DNA of 64,000 bases from an uncultured Kangiella sp. (lineage in GTDB: Bacteria > Pseudomonadota > Gammaproteobacteria > Enterobacterales > Kangiellaceae): the NCBI GenBank assembly GCA_947498625.1, contig CANMKR010000003.1, forward strand, positions 186,001-250,000, given 5' to 3'. Shown here one piece after another: positions 29,934 through 37,529 of this stretch. Within the stretch, counting starts at the first letter, position 1; each line of letters starts with the position of its first letter. Made by a program: the position numbers and the translations under genes. The notes under the pieces are model-generated. The model made no database searches, was not told the origin of the DNA, and saw only the letters and a list, made by a program, of their open reading frames with translations.

Positions 29934-32567
29934 TTATTCTTCTTCGGACTCACTTGATTCATTAGTATCAACAGCTTCTTCACTAGCAGTTTCTGATGCT
30001 TCAGCTTCAGGCGCTCCGTCCTCAAACTCTTCATCATCTTCTAATTCGACAATACGCTGCAATCCTACAAGAGTTTCGCCGTCATCTAGCTTAATTAAAC
30101 GAACACCCTGAGTATTTCGACCCATCACTCGAATATCATCGACGCCAGTACGAATTAAGGTTCCACCTTTACTAATTAACATCACTTCATCGCCATCAAT
30201 CACTGGGACAGCACTCACCACGCCGCCATTCCGCTCGCTCATTTGAATCGAGATAACGCCCTGACCACCGCGTCCACGCAATGGATGATCTTCCATAGCA
30301 GTACGTTTACCATAACCGTTTTCAGTAGCCGTTAAGATAGAACCGTTTTCTTCTGCTACTACCATCGCAATCACTTTAGCGCCTTCTGGTAAACGAATAC
30401 CGCGAACACCTTTTGCGGTACGCCCCATGGCTCTGACATTTGCTTCATCGAAGCGGATAACCTTACCGGCATCACTAAACATCATGACATGATTTGAGCC
30501 ATCGGTTTTAGCAACACCAATCAATTCATCATCATCCATAATGGTTAAAGCAATAATGCCGTTCGCTCTAGGACGTGAGAATTGTTCTAAAGAAGTTTTC
30601 TTCACAGTTCCGTTAGCCGTTGCCATAAAGACATATTCGTCTTCTTTGTATTCGCGAATCGGTAAAATAGCGCTAATTTTTTCACCCTCTTCCAATGGTA
30701 AAACATTAACCACTGGCTTACCGCGCGAGCCACGGCCAGCGTTTGGTAACTCAAACACTTTCAACCAATAAACTTTACCGCGCGAAGAGAAACATAAAAT
30801 GGTGTCATGGGTCGAAGCCACTAGTAACTTTTCAATAAAGTCTTCTTCTTTCATCTTTGTCGCTGACTTACCACGACCGCCACGACGTTGTGCTTTATAT
30901 TCAGATAAAGCCTGATACTTAACGTAACCTTCGTGAGATAAAGTAACCACTACATCTTCTTCGGTAATTAAATCGGCAATGGTTAAATCTAATTTACTTT
31001 CTAAAATTTCAGAACGTCGCTCATCACCAAACTCTTCTTTTACTTGATTCAACTCTTCTCGAATAACTTCTAACAAACGATCCGTGTTTAATAGGATATG
31101 AAGTAATTCTTCGATCAAACCTAATAAATCTTTGTACTCACCTAAAATTTTATCGTGCTCTAGGCCAGTTAGCTTATGTAAACGCAACTCAAGAATTGCC
31201 TGCGCTTGCGCTTCCGATAGATTATAAACATCATCATGGAAGCCAAACTCAGCGCCTAAATCTTCTGGACGACAAGCTTCGGTACCCGCTCTTGCTAACA
31301 TTTCTGAAACCTGTCCAGGTTTCCAACTGCGAGCAATTAATTCAGCTTTTGCTTCTTTTGGAGTTGGCGATTGCTTGATCAGCTCAATCACTTCATCAAT
31401 ATTGGCTAAGGCAATCGCAAGACCTTCAAGTACGTGAGCTTTTTCGCGCGCTTTACGCAATTCAAAAATGGTACGACGGGTCACTACTTCTCGGCGGTGA
31501 GTCACAAAAGCATCTAACGCTTCTTTCAAATTAAATAAGCGTGGCTGACCATTATCCAGAGCAACCATATTGATGCCGAACACATTTTGCATTTGCGATT
31601 GAGCATAAAGATTATTAAGAATTACTTCAGGCACTTCGCCTTTGCGCAATTCAATCACCATACGCATACCGTCTTTATCAGACTCATCACGCAATCCGGT
31701 AATACCTTCGAGCTTTTTATCTTTAACCAGCTCAGCAATTTTTTCTAATAAGCGAGCTTTATTTACTTGGTAAGGAAGTTCGGTAACGACAATCGAATCT
31801 TTACCATTTTTAGGATCGGTTTCGATATGGTTACGAGCGCGCAAATAAATCTTACCGCGGCCTGTGTGATAAGCATCGACGATCCCAGCACGGCCATTAA
31901 TAATCGCAGCGGTTGGGAAGTCTGGGCCTTTAATGAATTCCATCAATTCTGGAATAGTAATATCGGGATTATCAATAATAGCCAGACAGCCTTCGATCAC
32001 TTCGTTAATATTATGCGGCGGAATATTGGTCGCCATACCTACGGCGATACCTGATGAGCCATTCACTAATAAATTAGGGATACGCGTTGGTAAAACCGTT
32101 GGCTCAGATTCAGAGCCATCATAGTTTTCTTCGAAGTCGACCGTTTCCTTATCCAAATCAGCTAGCAATTGGTGCGCCATTTTATCCATACGGACTTCCG
32201 TATAACGCATAGCTGCTGGCGAATCGCCATCAACCGAACCAAAGTTACCTTGACCATCAACTAACATGTAGCGCAATGAGAATGGCTGAGCCATACGCAC
32301 GATAGTATCGTAAACCGCGGTATCACCATGCGGGTGGTATTTACCGATAACATCACCAACGACACGGGCTGATTTCTTGTAAGCTTTGTTGTAATCATTA
32401 CCCAACACTTCCATGGCATACAATACCCTTCTATGCACGGGCTTTAGGCCATCGCGAACGTCCGGTAAAGCACGCCCAACGATAACGCTCATGGCATAAT
32501 CTAAGTAGGAATTTTTGAGCTCATCTTCGATATTAATTGGAAGTATTTCTTTGGCGACTTCACCCAT
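29934..32567 (-). CDS. gyrA: DNA gyrase subunit A
   Basis: Cuts and rejoins DNA in the A2B2 gyrase complex that introduces negative supercoils. 877 residues: the breakage-reunion domain with catalytic Tyr122 (AMRYTEVRM), the coiled-coil region, and six C-terminal beta-pinwheel blades including the GyrA box [11 protein letters not shown] very acidic tail ends in SEEE. At the quinolone-resistance positions it has Thr83 and Asp87 (E. coli numbering applies directly). Thr83 is the natural residue in Pseudomonas, so this does not by itself imply resistance. It is divergent from the amidohydrolase-ubiG operon. Confidence 0.98.
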
Positions 32568-32800
32568 AGTAAAAACCTTTTATTTTCAATAAGTTATAGT
32601 GTTTTATTTTTGTCTATATTTGATTGTTTTTTGAGCGACTGTTAGCACTCAAAATAAGCATAAAATTCTAGCATATTTGGGCTTTTTCGGCGACCTTTAA
32701 TCACTATTTTTACTGTTTAGTAAGTCATTGTTTTACCGAGGATTGAGCTAGCCTCAGAAGGCAGTTTGGTGTATAAATATTGGCCACAGATCACTCTTAA
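32568..32800. promoter_or_regulatory. Divergent promoter region between gyrA and the amidohydrolase-ubiG genes (233 bp)
   Basis: No gene is seen. The region must hold promoters for both directions; it is AT-rich, but I could not pick convincing -35/-10 pairs. A dyad TTTTGAG (32629-32635) / CTCAAAA (32648-32654) with a 12-base spacer is the only clear symmetric element and could be an operator. Confidence 0.45.
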
Positions 32801-34117
32801 TTGCAATACATTTTGAATCCTATAGATAGCCAACAGCAAATCGTAGACTTACAGATAAATGCTAAGACAGTTATGCCTTTTGATCCAAATCAAAAGGAGC
32901 TTCTATTCAATCATTCTGTATTGATTAATGATGGAACTATTGTCGATATCTTGTCGTCCGATCAAGTGGCGTCAAAATACCAAGCGAAAACAGTGGTTGA
33001 ACTTGGCCAGCATACTTTGTTGCCTAGTTTTAATAACCATTATTGCTCTATAGGCTTTAAAGCATTTCATCATATTGGCAGCGACTTGCCCTTAAATTTA
33101 CGAATTCAAAATAAAGTCCAACCGTTAGAAACTAAGCACCTTAGTCCAGAACTCACTAGCATCAGTTCAGAATTAGGGCTTGGCGATTTGTTTCGCGCGG
33201 GTTGCGGTCAATTTAGTAGCCAATATTCATACCCTAAACAAGCAATGGAGATAGCGAATAAACATTCTGTTGAAGCTCTAATTTATTACTCCATTGATGT
33301 TAGCGATGACCGTCAAACCTTCCAACATCAGCTAACCGAGTTTTTAAAACTACGGGATGAAACCAAGCATCGTCAAAATATTGAATTGGGTTTATCGTTA
33401 TCCAACCCAGAGCTATTAACTAAAGAACAGCTGAATCGTTTTAGCGGTTTATACAATGAGTTAATGATAAAACTTTTAATCTCATTAAATCCTTCGTTCC
33501 ATCGCTCACATAAAAGTTTTAAAAGTAGTAAGGCTCGCTATAAACTACTAAAAGAACACTATTTCTTGTCACCTGATTTACACCTGATTGATGTATTTGG
33601 CTTGTCTCGGCAGGAAGTATCTTTCTTATCAAAAAATAAAGTTAAATCTATTATTTGCCCTAGCGCGCAGTTAATTCACGCCAATGCATTATCACCTGTC
33701 GACTTTTTGCATAACACCAATGCCAACCTATATATCGGCACCAACAATTATCTATCATCAAATTTGAACCCATTAAAAGAATTACAGCTGTTGGCATGGC
33801 TAACCAAGCTAGAGTCACAAAACGCTCAGCTTTTCGATGCTAAGGCACTTTTGGGTTTTGCTGTACACAGCAACAAACTTGATACACCATTAACATCAGG
33901 TGCTATGAGCATAGGTGCTAAAGCTAATATCACAGCATTTGAACATGCCAATCAATACACTAATGATTATGATCCTTTTACTCAAATAGTTTATACTGCC
34001 GAACAATCTAGAGTCAGTCATTTGTGGGTTAACGGTATTGCTAAAGTGAAGGCATATCAGCTAACCGATATTGATGAGCAGTATTTAACTAAAACCCTAA
34101 GCAAATGGCTTAATTAA
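32801..34117 (+). CDS. Degenerate TRZ/ATZ amidohydrolase-family protein, metal site lost
   Basis: 438 residues. Position upstream of ubiG and overall layout match the 5'-methylthioadenosine/S-adenosylhomocysteine deaminase (MtaD-like, TRZ/ATZ) gene common there. The N-terminal beta-sandwich (INDGTIVDI) and C-terminal SGAMSIGAKANITAFE are kept. The metal ligands are not: the HxH site after LPSF reads NNHYC (residues 78-82), the HxHE strand reads LISLN (226-230), the next histidine region reads LIDVFGL (262-268), and GTDG reads GTNN (313-316). Catalysis by the usual mechanism is therefore unlikely. The frame is intact. It opens with TTG 32801 and has no good ribosome-binding site. Confidence 0.75.
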   Translation: MQYILNPIDSQQQIVDLQINAKTVMPFDPNQKELLFNHSVLINDGTIVDILSSDQVASKYQAKTVVELGQHTLLPSFNNHYCSIGFKAFHHIGSDLPLNLRIQNKVQPLETKHLSPELTSISSELGLGDLFRAGCGQFSSQYSYPKQAMEIANKHSVEALIYYSIDVSDDRQTFQHQLTEFLKLRDETKHRQNIELGLSLSNPELLTKEQLNRFSGLYNELMIKLLISLNPSFHRSHKSFKSSKARYKLLKEHYFLSPDLHLIDVFGLSRQEVSFLSKNKVKSIICPSAQLIHANALSPVDFLHNTNANLYIGTNNYLSSNLNPLKELQLLAWLTKLESQNAQLFDAKALLGFAVHSNKLDTPLTSGAMSIGAKANITAFEHANQYTNDYDPFTQIVYTAEQSRVSHLWVNGIAKVKAYQLTDIDEQYLTKTLSKWLN

Positions 34118-34132
34118 ATTTATGGCAACCTC

Positions 34133-34834
34133 ATGAGTCAAAACGTCGACCAACACGAAATTTCAAAATTTGAACAAATGGCTTCTCGCTGGTGGGATAA
34201 AGAAGGTGATTTCAAACCATTGCATGACATCAACCCTTTACGTCTTAACTTCATTCTTGACCATGCTAATGGTTTAGCCGGGAAAAAAGTTTTAGATATT
34301 GGTTGTGGTGGCGGAATCTTGACAGAATCAATGGCTAAGGAAGGCGCTGAGGTCATAGGTATCGATATGGGAGAGATGCCTCTAGAAGTTGCAAAACTGC
34401 ATCTACTAGAATCAAAATTGTCGGTAGATTATCAAAAGTCTACCGCTGAAGATTTTGCAGAAAAACATGCCGGGCAATTTGATGTAGTCACTTGTTTAGA
34501 AATGCTTGAACATGTGCCTGATCCTGAATCCATTATCAAAGCTTGTCATAAATTGGTTAAACCTGATGGCCATGTCTTCTTTTCAACCATTAATCGCAAC
34601 CCAAAAAGTTTTTTATTTGCGATTGTCGGTGCGGAATATATTTTAAATATGCTGCCCAAAGGCACTCATGATTTCAAAAAGTTTATCCGCCCTTCAGAAC
34701 TAGAGTCTTGGGCAAGACCTAATGGTTTAAGCTTTAAGAATATGATTGGAATGCACTATAACCCTATCACCAAAAAATATTGGTTGGGCGATAATGTGGA
34801 TGTTAATTATATCGTTCACTGCCTGCCTGAATAA
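34133..34834 (+). CDS. ubiG: Ubiquinone biosynthesis O-methyltransferase
   Basis: SAM-dependent enzyme that performs the two O-methylations of ubiquinone synthesis at the inner membrane. 233 residues contain [20 protein letters not shown], the SAM-binding loop [13 protein letters not shown] (about 49-61), [13 protein letters not shown], and the membrane-binding/lid region [20 protein letters not shown]. The last of these is specific for UbiG. It is followed 10 bases later by gph, the usual partner, and lies opposite gyrA as in E. coli. Confidence 0.97.
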
Positions 34835-34844
34835 CTCCTAGTAT

Positions 34845-35510
34845 ATGTTTAAGCATCAAGTTAAAGGGGTCTTTTTTGATCTCGACGGAACGCTAGTTGA
34901 TACCGCTCCTGATATGGCGTTGGCACTCAATTTGCAATTAGAACGCCATAATAAAAATCCATTGGATTACTCAGTTATTAGACCTTGGGTTTCTCATGGC
35001 GCTGCTGCACTTATTAAGTTAGGCTTTGGCGTTACTCCTGAACATCAAGAGTTTGAAGAATACCGTCTGGAATATCTAAATGTTTACTCTGATAATTTAG
35101 CCATCAAAAGCCAACTCTTTCCGCATTTAAACGATCTACTTAACCAGTTCGATGCTAACGGTATTAAATGGGGTGTTGTAACTAACAAGCCTGAGTTTTT
35201 AGCCTTACCTTTATTAGAGCAGTTAGGCTTATTGAAAAGAGCCGCCGCAGTAGTCTGTGGCGATACTGTGAAGCCGAGTAAACCAAGCCCTACGCCACTC
35301 TTTTTAGCTTGCAAGCTTGCCAAACTTAACTCAAATGAATGTATCTATGTTGGTGACGCTCAAAGAGATATCCAAGCAGCCAATTCAGCTGGCCAATACT
35401 CTGTTGCGGTTAAATATGGTTATATTACTGATGATGACAAGGTTGCTGATTGGAATGCAGATTTAGTTCTTAATTCTAGTAAAGAATTATTAGACCTGTT
35501 TAAGTCGTAA
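34845..35510 (+). CDS. gph: HAD-family phosphoglycolate phosphatase
   Basis: 221-residue HAD phosphatase with motif I FFDLDGTLVDT (nucleophile and acid/base aspartates), motif II VVTNKPEF, the KPSPTP lysine segment, and motif III YVGDAQRDIQAA. The adjacent gene ubiG places it in the Gph/UbiG pairing of gammaproteobacteria; hydrolysis of 2-phosphoglycolate, or of N-acetylmuramic acid 6-phosphate in MupP-type relatives, are the known activities. I favour Gph but cannot separate the two by eye. Confidence 0.88.
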   Translation: MFKHQVKGVFFDLDGTLVDTAPDMALALNLQLERHNKNPLDYSVIRPWVSHGAAALIKLGFGVTPEHQEFEEYRLEYLNVYSDNLAIKSQLFPHLNDLLNQFDANGIKWGVVTNKPEFLALPLLEQLGLLKRAAAVVCGDTVKPSKPSPTPLFLACKLAKLNSNECIYVGDAQRDIQAANSAGQYSVAVKYGYITDDDKVADWNADLVLNSSKELLDLFKS

Positions 35511-35522
35511 TTCCTTTTTCTG

Positions 35523-37529
35523 TTATTGTAAACGAAAGTTTTTCTTAGCCCAAAGTAAATTAAAACTTACGCCATCGTTATTTTCTGAATTAGTAGCAAA
35601 TATTTTCGCCTTATGTCGACGAGCAATGAGTCTTGCCAAATAAAGTCCAAGACCTAAATTACTGGTTCTCCCGCTGGATGAAATTGCACTATCTTTTTTT
35701 CGGTGCGATTCCATTAAGTTAAACACTGTTTGCAATTTATCTTGTTCTATCAGGGGACCATAATTAAATACCGATAACTGCAAACTGCTTTTATTCAATT
35801 CCAAAGAAATAAGAATGGTCTTTCTCTCATCACAAAAATCTACCGCATTAGAGATAATTTTATCTAGCATTTGAGCAAACAAATCTTCCGTACCCCGTAT
35901 TTTAACATCCACATCAGCAAGATTAAGCTTAAAGCTAATATCTGGCCAAGCATGAGCATAAGAGGTAACTAAAGACTCTAACAATTGACCCAACACAAAC
36001 CATTCAAGTTCTACTTTATCAATCGAGTCTTCTAATCGGTTGGCTTCACTTAAACGACTAAAACTTAAACTTAACCGCTCTAAACCAGTTCTAGCATTAT
36101 TAATTAGTTGCTGATCACCCTCATCAAGCTCTGATAGAGCCAAATTGTCAATCGAAGAACCTATAATGGCCAAAGGCGTTCTCAGCTCATGGTTAAGGCG
36201 AGCTAAGAGTTTTTGCTGGTGCCCACGACGCTGCTCCAGCCTTTGGTTATAGTAAGCCATGTTTTCATATAATTGACTTATTTCATCATGACCATCTATT
36301 TCAATATTAGAAAAATCCACCGCATCTGCATCCGCCTCATTAGCTTGTTCTGTTAGCTCATTAAGAACAGCGATCCTTTTGCGATATTTGGAAATTTGAC
36401 TGATCACCATGCTTAAAGTCACTAACCAAATAATTACAGAGATAACCCACAGCCACCATTTGATAGTTTCAAGTAGCTGCTTTTCTTCTAACAAAGATGA
36501 TTCAAGAATAACCAAGCCTGATTGCTCGCCATTCATTTGAAAAAACTTACCGGACCGAGAGTAAAAATCGATACTGCCTTGGTTAAAATCCTCTGAATGA
36601 GAACCATTTTGATAAATAGAGCGAGTAAAAGCATCGTCAATTTTTTTAACTGAACGATAACGATCGTTTGTTAGCATTTGTGTAGCATTGATTGAAAACA
36701 GATCGCCCACTTGATAAATAACCTGACCCGTTTGGTTAGTAATGGTTAACCGTTTTTGTTTTAATTCATTAGCTAATAGCCAAGCATTGTTTTTTTCACG
36801 TGCCAAAGGCAAATAAGAGAAATTAGTAAAGGTAAAAACACCTTGGTATTTATCGTTATAGTTTGAAAGCTCTTTGTTATCCACATCATATAAAACAGCA
36901 TTAAGTTTATCGCCAACTAAAAGCTTAGGTGCTCTAAATTCAACTACATAACCATTTTTAGTTTCTTGCCAGACAGCAACAATAGAGTTAATGGGTTTTA
37001 AACCGCTGCCAAACTCTCTTTGCACATTCATTCTTCCGGGAGCAACCGCTTGCAATAGCCAATAGCCGTAACCCAAGTCGAGTCTCAACATATCTGAAGA
37101 CTGCCCCTGGCTTTGATTATTAAGATAGAGCACATGATTATCTTGAACTTCAATCAAGCCATACACAAATTGCTGATCTTCTATCAGACGCATTTGCGAG
37201 GGATTAGTATCATTACGTGTCTGCAATAGATTATCTTGATAAGGAAACCATTCATCAGCAAAACCATCGACTAATATTGGTCCTTCTCTTTTTGCCACAA
37301 CTACTTGCTTGGCATTTTTTTGCAGTGACATTTGTTCTGCAAAGTTACTATCTTCCTGAATCAGCTTTAACAATAATCCATGGTAACTATTGAGCAACTG
37401 TTTGTTTGTTTCACTGTTGTTTAACTCAATTTGTCCTTGATAAACCTTAAGCGCATACCAATTTGCAGCAGGTATCAACAATAACAGCAACAGTAAGCAG
37501 AAAACTTTCCAGCCGATCCCTAATCTCAT
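35523..37529 (-). CDS. Sensor histidine kinase, 'proteobacterial dedicated sortase system' type
   Basis: 668 residues. It has an N-terminal membrane helix (about 8-25), then a periplasmic region of about 300 residues starting like a carbohydrate-binding beta sandwich (PILVDGFADEWFPYQ, about 79-93), and a second helix near 355-375. HisKA follows with phospho-acceptor H447 in LNHELRTPLAI, then an HATPase domain with LGLGLYLARLIARR. The N-terminal pattern matches my recollection of the kinase of the 'proteobacterial dedicated sortase system' (marine sortase group). The regulator gene overlaps its start (ATGA). No sortase or target protein is visible within the window. Confidence 0.82.
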   Translation of the reverse strand: MRLGIGWKVFCLLLLLLLIPAANWYALKVYQGQIELNNSETNKQLLNSYHGLLLKLIQEDSNFAEQMSLQKNAKQVVVAKREGPILVDGFADEWFPYQDNLLQTRNDTNPSQMRLIEDQQFVYGLIEVQDNHVLYLNNQSQGQSSDMLRLDLGYGYWLLQAVAPGRMNVQREFGSGLKPINSIVAVWQETKNGYVVEFRAPKLLVGDKLNAVLYDVDNKELSNYNDKYQGVFTFTNFSYLPLAREKNNAWLLANELKQKRLTITNQTGQVIYQVGDLFSINATQMLTNDRYRSVKKIDDAFTRSIYQNGSHSEDFNQGSIDFYSRSGKFFQMNGEQSGLVILESSLLEEKQLLETIKWWLWVISVIIWLVTLSMVISQISKYRKRIAVLNELTEQANEADADAVDFSNIEIDGHDEISQLYENMAYYNQRLEQRRGHQQKLLARLNHELRTPLAIIGSSIDNLALSELDEGDQQLINNARTGLERLSLSFSRLSEANRLEDSIDKVELEWFVLGQLLESLVTSYAHAWPDISFKLNLADVDVKIRGTEDLFAQMLDKIISNAVDFCDERKTILISLELNKSSLQLSVFNYGPLIEQDKLQTVFNLMESHRKKDSAISSSGRTSNLGLGLYLARLIARRHKAKIFATNSENNDGVSFNLLWAKKNFRLQ

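Follow-up and report, generated by a model that had tools for sequence, protein, structure and literature searches.

Why should an amidohydrolase gene stay open over its whole length in a genome of the marine bacterium Kangiella after losing every residue that would hold the metal? The question is raised by one open reading frame of the window, the 64,000-nucleotide stretch of DNA analysed here. A first-pass annotation described it as an amidohydrolase homologue upstream of ubiG with all metal ligands lost and its frame intact, and read it as a retained pseudoenzyme. The gene and its neighbours, whose names gyrA, ubiG and gph-like we assume from general knowledge, are as follows.

32801–34117, + strand: MtaD-derived pseudoenzyme gene of the TRZ/ATZ family, metal site lost, TTG start, 438 codons (438 amino acids)
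29934–32567, − strand: open reading frame taken to be gyrA, the divergent upstream neighbour
34133–34834, + strand: open reading frame taken, as in the first-pass annotation, to be ubiG, 15 nt downstream of the pseudoenzyme gene
34845–35510, + strand: open reading frame for a HAD phosphatase after ubiG, presumably gph-like

The list of open reading frames gives zero internal stops over the 438 codons of 32801–34117. The start is weakly defined: it is a TTG, and the first in-frame ATG or GTG does not come before codon 25. The stretch 32801–32875 offers only TTG codons as starts and lacks a clear ribosome-binding site; two related copies, G017 and G015, have an ATG near the start. The top NCBIfam match of the product is PRK09045 (TRZ/ATZ hydrolase; 187 bits, residues 11–436), below that model's curated cut-off of 540 bits, and the Pfam model PF01979 misses the protein, so that the locus is absent among the genome's 13 PF01979 matches. 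Searched by sequence, the solved structures rank 3lnp first (E 3e-34), then 4gbd, 4dyk, 4f0r and 4dzh; 4f0r carries the name 5-methylthioadenosine/S-adenosylhomocysteine deaminase. ubiG is the next gene downstream in 30/30 mtaD loci and gyrA lies upstream in 28 of them. By its position, flanked by divergent gyrA and by ubiG, the window gene is the orthologue of MtaD. The MtaD-like fold and position proposed at first reading agree with this location, with the best model match and with the predicted fold described below.

A second, active MtaD, which it had been suggested to look for, was not found in the genome. A protein search with the window protein returns only itself at E ≤ 0.001, and the next match is the gene named HutF both with the PRK09045 model (64 bits) and with a six-row alignment (26 bits). 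The strongest PF01979 match, L001, was considered as a second MtaD and rejected, since its best model is an Xaa-Pro dipeptidase, though below that model's cut-off.

To score the ligands we aligned the window protein with 29 relatives, the choice of metal-binding residues resting on what we take to be family knowledge. H81 and H83 of β1 are replaced by Tyr and Ser, H228 of β5 by Ser, the catalytic E231 by Pro, H264 of β6 by Asp and D315 of β8 by Asn; none of the five metal ligands survives, nor does the catalytic residue. No alignment of the window protein restores a ligand. The description of a ligand-free homologue with an intact frame therefore stands, and the residue ranges first given for the replaced sites are correct to within a few residues. 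The altered segments are:

33035–33058, + strand: codons 79–86, NHYCSIGF, aligned in place of N-x-H-T-H-A-A-M of active Kangiella MtaD
33101–33109, + strand: codons 101–103, R-I-Q, from the alignment
33482–33493, + strand: codons 228–231, SLNP, in place of the β5 H-x-H-E; within the segment of lowest conservation, which G015 has deleted
33590–33592, + strand: codon 264, Asp, aligned in place of the β6 His
33737–33748, + strand: codons 313–316, GTNN, in place of the β8 GTDG; Asn316 is invariant in 6/6 ligand-poor copies

How widely the loss is shared was read from a protein search covering 61 genomes, 20 of them Kangiella. One match per genome was found in 19/20 Kangiella: six copies are ligand-poor (G000, which is this genome, and G012, G017, G004, G016 and G015) and 13 have every ligand. 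The remaining genome (G002, 55% complete) has no visible gene, giving no match by protein or six-row profile search and weak ones with the PRK09045 model. Of the 30 loci, 24 carry the metal ligands together with the HxHE Glu, and six do not. Another twelve loci of the family (one is partial) carry HxH in 11/11 readable cases, HxHE in 12/12 and GTD in 12/12, the β6 His not being scored separately there; in the 20 family genomes outside Kangiella (8 + 12) the ligands are retained wherever readable. Ligand loss is confined to one group among the genomes read. A profile of the six copies scores 617–708 bits against the six and at most 383 against every other copy in 40 family genomes. In trees covering 23 loci the six are monophyletic, with support 100 and a stem length of 0.89 for the MtaD protein and support 99 for gyrA+ubiG nucleotides. 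The branch order within the clade disagrees between the trees and is weak in the gyrA+ubiG tree (56–75).

Relatives checked for the substitutions seen in the window thus carry them in six of 20 Kangiella, all in one clade. The β1 pair, the β5 His, Glu231 and the β6 His are gone in 6/6 copies, the β5 site of G015 through a deletion of ~12 residues over strand 5 that keeps the frame; the β8 Asp is lost in three and retained in G015, G016 and G017. Because the β1 replacement is common to all six members of a single clade, it most simply dates from their common ancestor, and divergence within the clade therefore came after it. In effect this is a record of one or two events rather than of independent repeats. 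The record of Kangiella sp. HZ709 holds a 96% identical copy. In place of NxHTHAAM the six have a common motif, N-[HS]-[YF]-C-S-[IL]-G-[AF]. Arg101, Gln103, Leu118, Asn316, Gln402 and Leu408 are invariant in the six, where 12 or all 13 of the active Kangiella copies carry a different residue, position 101 in the latter being Trp in 13/13 and position 103 Glu in 12/13.

Such a gene could simply be dying. Pairwise identity among the pseudoenzymes is 33–46% where UbiG is 85–90% identical (the G000/G012 pair, at 96%, set aside), and the 12 active Kangiella pairs of lowest UbiG identity (79–82%) are 66–69% identical in MtaD; active Kangiella MtaD and the six share a mean identity of 29–37%. The low pseudoenzyme identity against that of UbiG indicates that evolution has been much faster, yet it is not neutral by dN/dS. 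G000 and G012 differ at 48 codons, 16 of them in amino acid, giving ω = 0.156 with ω = 1 rejected (2ΔlnL 35.3). In a custom-written branch codon model with active, stem, crown and tip classes, ω for MtaD is 0.028 on active branches, 0.126 on two young tips and 0.128 in the crown, the last value being only approximate, since beyond the G000/G012 pair the synonymous sites have reached saturation. Setting ω = 1 in the crown costs 2ΔlnL 369 and a single ratio for all branches costs 2 × 37.7; without the last 48 codons ω = 1 is still rejected (2ΔlnL 314 for the crown, 49 for the tips). Given that saturation and a stem ω unstable between fits (0.25, 0.16 and 0.05), we draw no conclusion on the stem. 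The ligand-less MtaD copies are under purifying selection after the loss, with a constraint 4–5 times weaker than that on active MtaD.

Neither do the frames look disabled, with internal stops in 0/6 ligand-poor copies. A TAA in G017 was dismissed as a disabling stop because it sits before the gene's ATG, and a stop flagged in G000 and G012 because the match there overruns the gene's own stop codon. When neutral drift from the G017 gene is simulated in a simple way, 2/500 frames are still open after 0.1 substitutions per site, and 0/500 after 0.3. With ω at 0.13–0.16, no internal stop in 6/6 and a single in-frame deletion (G015), we rejected the class of decaying pseudogene. A slower decay, in which a dispensable gene without present function has yet to acquire its first disabling mutation, would fit the raised ω, the strand-5 deletion in G015, the poor conservation of the β5 and β7 segments, the weak TTG start and the redundancy with a nucleosidase described below. 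We consider it unlikely: neutrality is strongly rejected even on the youngest tips, six copies of which five are highly diverged have stayed open, and the clade has a common motif and invariant new residues. Neutral evolution, which would have marked the gene as decaying, is thus rejected both in the clade (ω ~0.13) and in its closest pair (0.16).

The relaxation is not general, because ω for UbiG is nearly the same in the crown (0.026) as in active lineages (0.022). A four-class model does beat one ratio for UbiG (2ΔlnL 15.8), with 4.3, near the bound, on the stem and 0.044 on the tips. We considered UbiG co-evolution here and take the stem value as short-branch noise, because only two UbiG positions are fixed differently in the two groups, and none in the N-terminal part of GyrA. 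A regulatory link to UbiG, suggested at first reading, finds no evidence in these values. As a separate observation on the locus, estimated dS between G000 and G012 is uneven across window positions 31000–34834 (0.33 in the N-terminal part of gyrA, 0.11 in mtaD, 0.08 in ubiG), a possible trace of recombination.

The 3′ end of the gene carries constraint of a second kind, in the following elements.

33971–34114, + strand: codons 391–438, where conservation in the pseudoenzymes stands highest against intact relatives; its synonymous sites are also under constraint in part
33989–33997, + strand: GTTTATACT, codons 397–399 (GTT TAT ACT), conserved at synonymous sites in the genus by codon comparison
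33992–33997, + strand: TATACT, a −10-box-like sequence 17 nt after ATGATC (33969–33974)

Only over the last 48 residues, among stretches of that length, do the pseudoenzymes clearly resemble one another more than intact relatives do (an identity difference of +0.05, against 0.00 for the best non-overlapping stretch and −0.19 for the whole protein). Four-fold identity among the pseudoenzymes is 0.65 in these codons and 0.34 over the whole gene. Where residues are the same, codon likeness there is 0.555 in the pseudoenzymes against 0.426 in shuffles (reached by 1/500) and 0.460 in the active set against 0.350 (0/500); the rest of the gene has a smaller excess (0.397 against 0.366, 7/500, and 0.385 against 0.353, 0/500, respectively). 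Some of the conservation at the C terminus may therefore reflect constraint on the DNA.

TATACT occupies the place of codons 397–399 in 18/19 Kangiella loci and reads TATAAT in G004; the element sits 126–153 nt before the end of the mtaD-derived gene, often with ATGATC or ATGACC 17 nt upstream. Across 15 Kangiella loci the three-codon window has a codon identity of 0.914, when the maximum of 300 shuffles is 0.555 there and 0.819 anywhere. In the last 230 nt of eleven non-Kangiella loci TATACT is missing from ten and placed elsewhere in one. A promoter scan of 32500–35700 does not list the element, whose −35 match is poor, and returns six sites, fewer than shuffles (10.7). We regard TATACT as a candidate ubiG promoter inside the pseudoenzyme gene. 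The same element bears on the idea that the frame is kept for its neighbour, translation preventing a polar, Rho-type loss of ubiG transcription. The 15-nt gap to ubiG and the frame open in 6/6 would suit this, but it predicts an open frame and not the residue-level constraint seen, and the conserved TATACT/TATAAT suggests that ubiG has a promoter of its own; we think it very improbable.

Along the protein, five pseudoenzymes compared in pairs have a mean identity of 0.56 at residues 77–110, 0.57 at 176–190, 0.42 at 301–340 and 0.52 at 391–438, dropping to 0.18 at 225–245 and 0.25 at 276–300, the β5 and β7 segments. Constraint at 73–110 acts on the protein, because four-fold sites there are only 0.29 identical. 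An AlphaFold2 model from ten sequences (pLDDT 74, pTM 0.77), which leans partly on the aligned relatives, five of them intact enzymes, predicts that the amidohydrolase fold persists; residues 1–9, 234–240, 359–363 and 384–422 fall under pLDDT 50. The best VIA-align chains are 4dyk, 4dzh, 4gbd and 4f0r (Z 39.8–40.9 over 399–403 residues), and Foldseek agrees.

Seven residues (C82, S83, G85, R101, Q103, N316 and Q402) are invariant in 6/6 and unlike active Kangiella MtaD, and we take C82, S83 and N316 to be barrel neighbours at the ends of β1 and β8. These residues could suggest new chemistry, with a pocket rebuilt around Cys82 with Ser83, Asn316 and Arg101 for metal-independent catalysis. Against this, the β5 and β7 segments are not conserved, and we know of no amidohydrolase-fold enzyme with a Cys at the equivalent of position 82; we rate such catalysis slightly below slow decay in probability.

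For binding of a methylthioadenosine (MTA)-type ligand, as first suggested, we looked at the residues that would serve it, whose roles we assume from general knowledge of the family. R158 and the His201 of APHAPYT are lost in 6/6 copies, though His201 also varies among intact relatives (Tyr in G039; the motif is unmatched in 3/12 loci), and W101 has become Arg in 6/6. E110, whose counterpart in TM0936-type enzymes we take to hold the hydroxyls of the ribose, is retained in 5/6, and the locus adjoins a SAM-dependent methyltransferase gene. An MTA/SAH binder without catalysis, acting as a sensor of MTA-type nucleosides, would be a special case of the binding role that we favour below, its odds overlapping with that one's; we give it a small chance, about that of slow decay.

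What could have made the deaminase dispensable may be seen elsewhere in these genomes. PF01048, the family of nucleosidases and phosphorylases, is matched in G000, G012, G016 and G017 and weakly in G015, and is absent in the other 15 genus genomes, including all 13 with active MtaD; the latter therefore have no obvious methylthioinosine-cleaving enzyme. The best solved match of the nucleosidase is 2h8g, an MTA nucleosidase (E 4e-47) presumably from Arabidopsis, followed by 3bsf (At4g34840). Bacterial nucleosidase structures come far behind, and the NCBIfam bacterial models stay below their own cut-offs. This plant-type gene (L039 1480–2193; G000:C1:179271–179984) adjoins a divergent gene that we take to be apt, for APRT, and apt is matched in G000, G012, G016 and G017 only, among the 20 genus genomes. 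G015 has two nucleosidase fragments (frames of 76 and 52 codons), and G004 has no nucleosidase at E up to 1 and no apt match, so a replacement account fits four of the six fully. AhcY is found in 20/20. Outside the genus a plant-type nucleosidase occurs in 13/20 family genomes and some PF01048 protein in 17/20; nucleosidase and intact MtaD coexist in 13/20, so that the nucleosidase alone does not doom MtaD. On the simplest account both routes were present in an ancestor, after which most Kangiella retained the deaminase and the ligand-less clade the nucleosidase, later lost in G015 and perhaps G004.

Ligand loss with continued selection suggests that this relative of MtaD probably changed jobs rather than simply died. 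The retained-pseudoenzyme claim is well supported, by losses in a six-species clade, dN/dS far below 1, a fold predicted intact and a search that found no second MtaD. Our preferred reading, which we consider fairly probable, is a retained pseudoenzyme derived from the resident MtaD and serving as a metal-free binding or assembly subunit. The sequence of events, their cause and a role without catalysis we infer as follows. In the clade ancestor MTA was probably removed by the plant-type MTA nucleosidase, its adenine reusable by APRT. Catalysis by MtaD would have become dispensable once that route served, the metal site being lost afterwards, with the β1 HxH pair gone by the time the clade began to diversify. 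The protein would then have kept one face of the barrel (the β1/β8 ends, the helix at ~176–190 and the C-terminal segment) while the β5 and β7 segments decayed, and may bind or assemble through the remodelled face with its N-[HS]-[YF]-C-S-[IL]-G motif, Arg101 and Asn316. Our reason for preferring this role is that the segments still conserved share one side of the barrel, whereas β5 and β7 are decaying. A further-reading proposal, to which we give somewhat less than even odds, is that a clade-specific MtaD-derived protein acquired a new metal-independent function (binding, assembly or Cys82 chemistry) on the rebuilt β1/β8 face, following a reciprocal split among sister Kangiella between MTA deaminase and nucleosidase plus APRT.

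Pseudoenzymes often come under study long after they arose, and alongside active paralogues. Here an inactive copy occupies the orthologous locus while the genus still has active orthologues, and a pathway change that may have freed it is readable from the genomes. Among the matches listed in a literature search by title and start of abstract, nothing concerned an inactive MtaD or this Kangiella locus, which is weak evidence of absence, and the Kangiella passages of PMC3228920 hold nothing on the mtaD-derived gene. How an enzyme turns into a pseudoenzyme can be tested by comparing Kangiella sp. HZ709 with an active sister, for example K. aquimarina.

Among the closest known systems is the MTA deaminase of P. 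aeruginosa, which we take to be PA3170 (4gbd and 4dyk), its mtaD presumably also near gyrA and ubiG. The window protein is predicted to have the same fold as this PRK09045-type enzyme over residues 13–438 (Z ~40) at 20–21% identity; the ligands and catalytic Glu present there (with zinc in the PDB titles) are replaced in the window protein. A review (PMC6302742, citing Guan et al. 2012) states that MTA is deaminated by P. aeruginosa. Another is the pseudo-dihydroorotase of P. aeruginosa ATCase, a retained inactive dihydroorotase homologue that, according to the abstract of PMC7053772, ATCase needs for its activity; it belongs to another subfamily and its partner is known. By analogy with these dihydroorotase-like chains, the window protein may have a role in assembly. 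The CRMP/DPYSL proteins of animals, derived from dihydropyrimidinase, lack a metal site and are retained for binding; they differ from the window protein in host and subfamily. Also close are the active MtaD proteins of the 13 sister Kangiella, encoded at the orthologous position like the window gene and, unlike the ligand-less clade, keeping all ligands under an ω of 0.028 in genomes with no nucleosidase or apt match.
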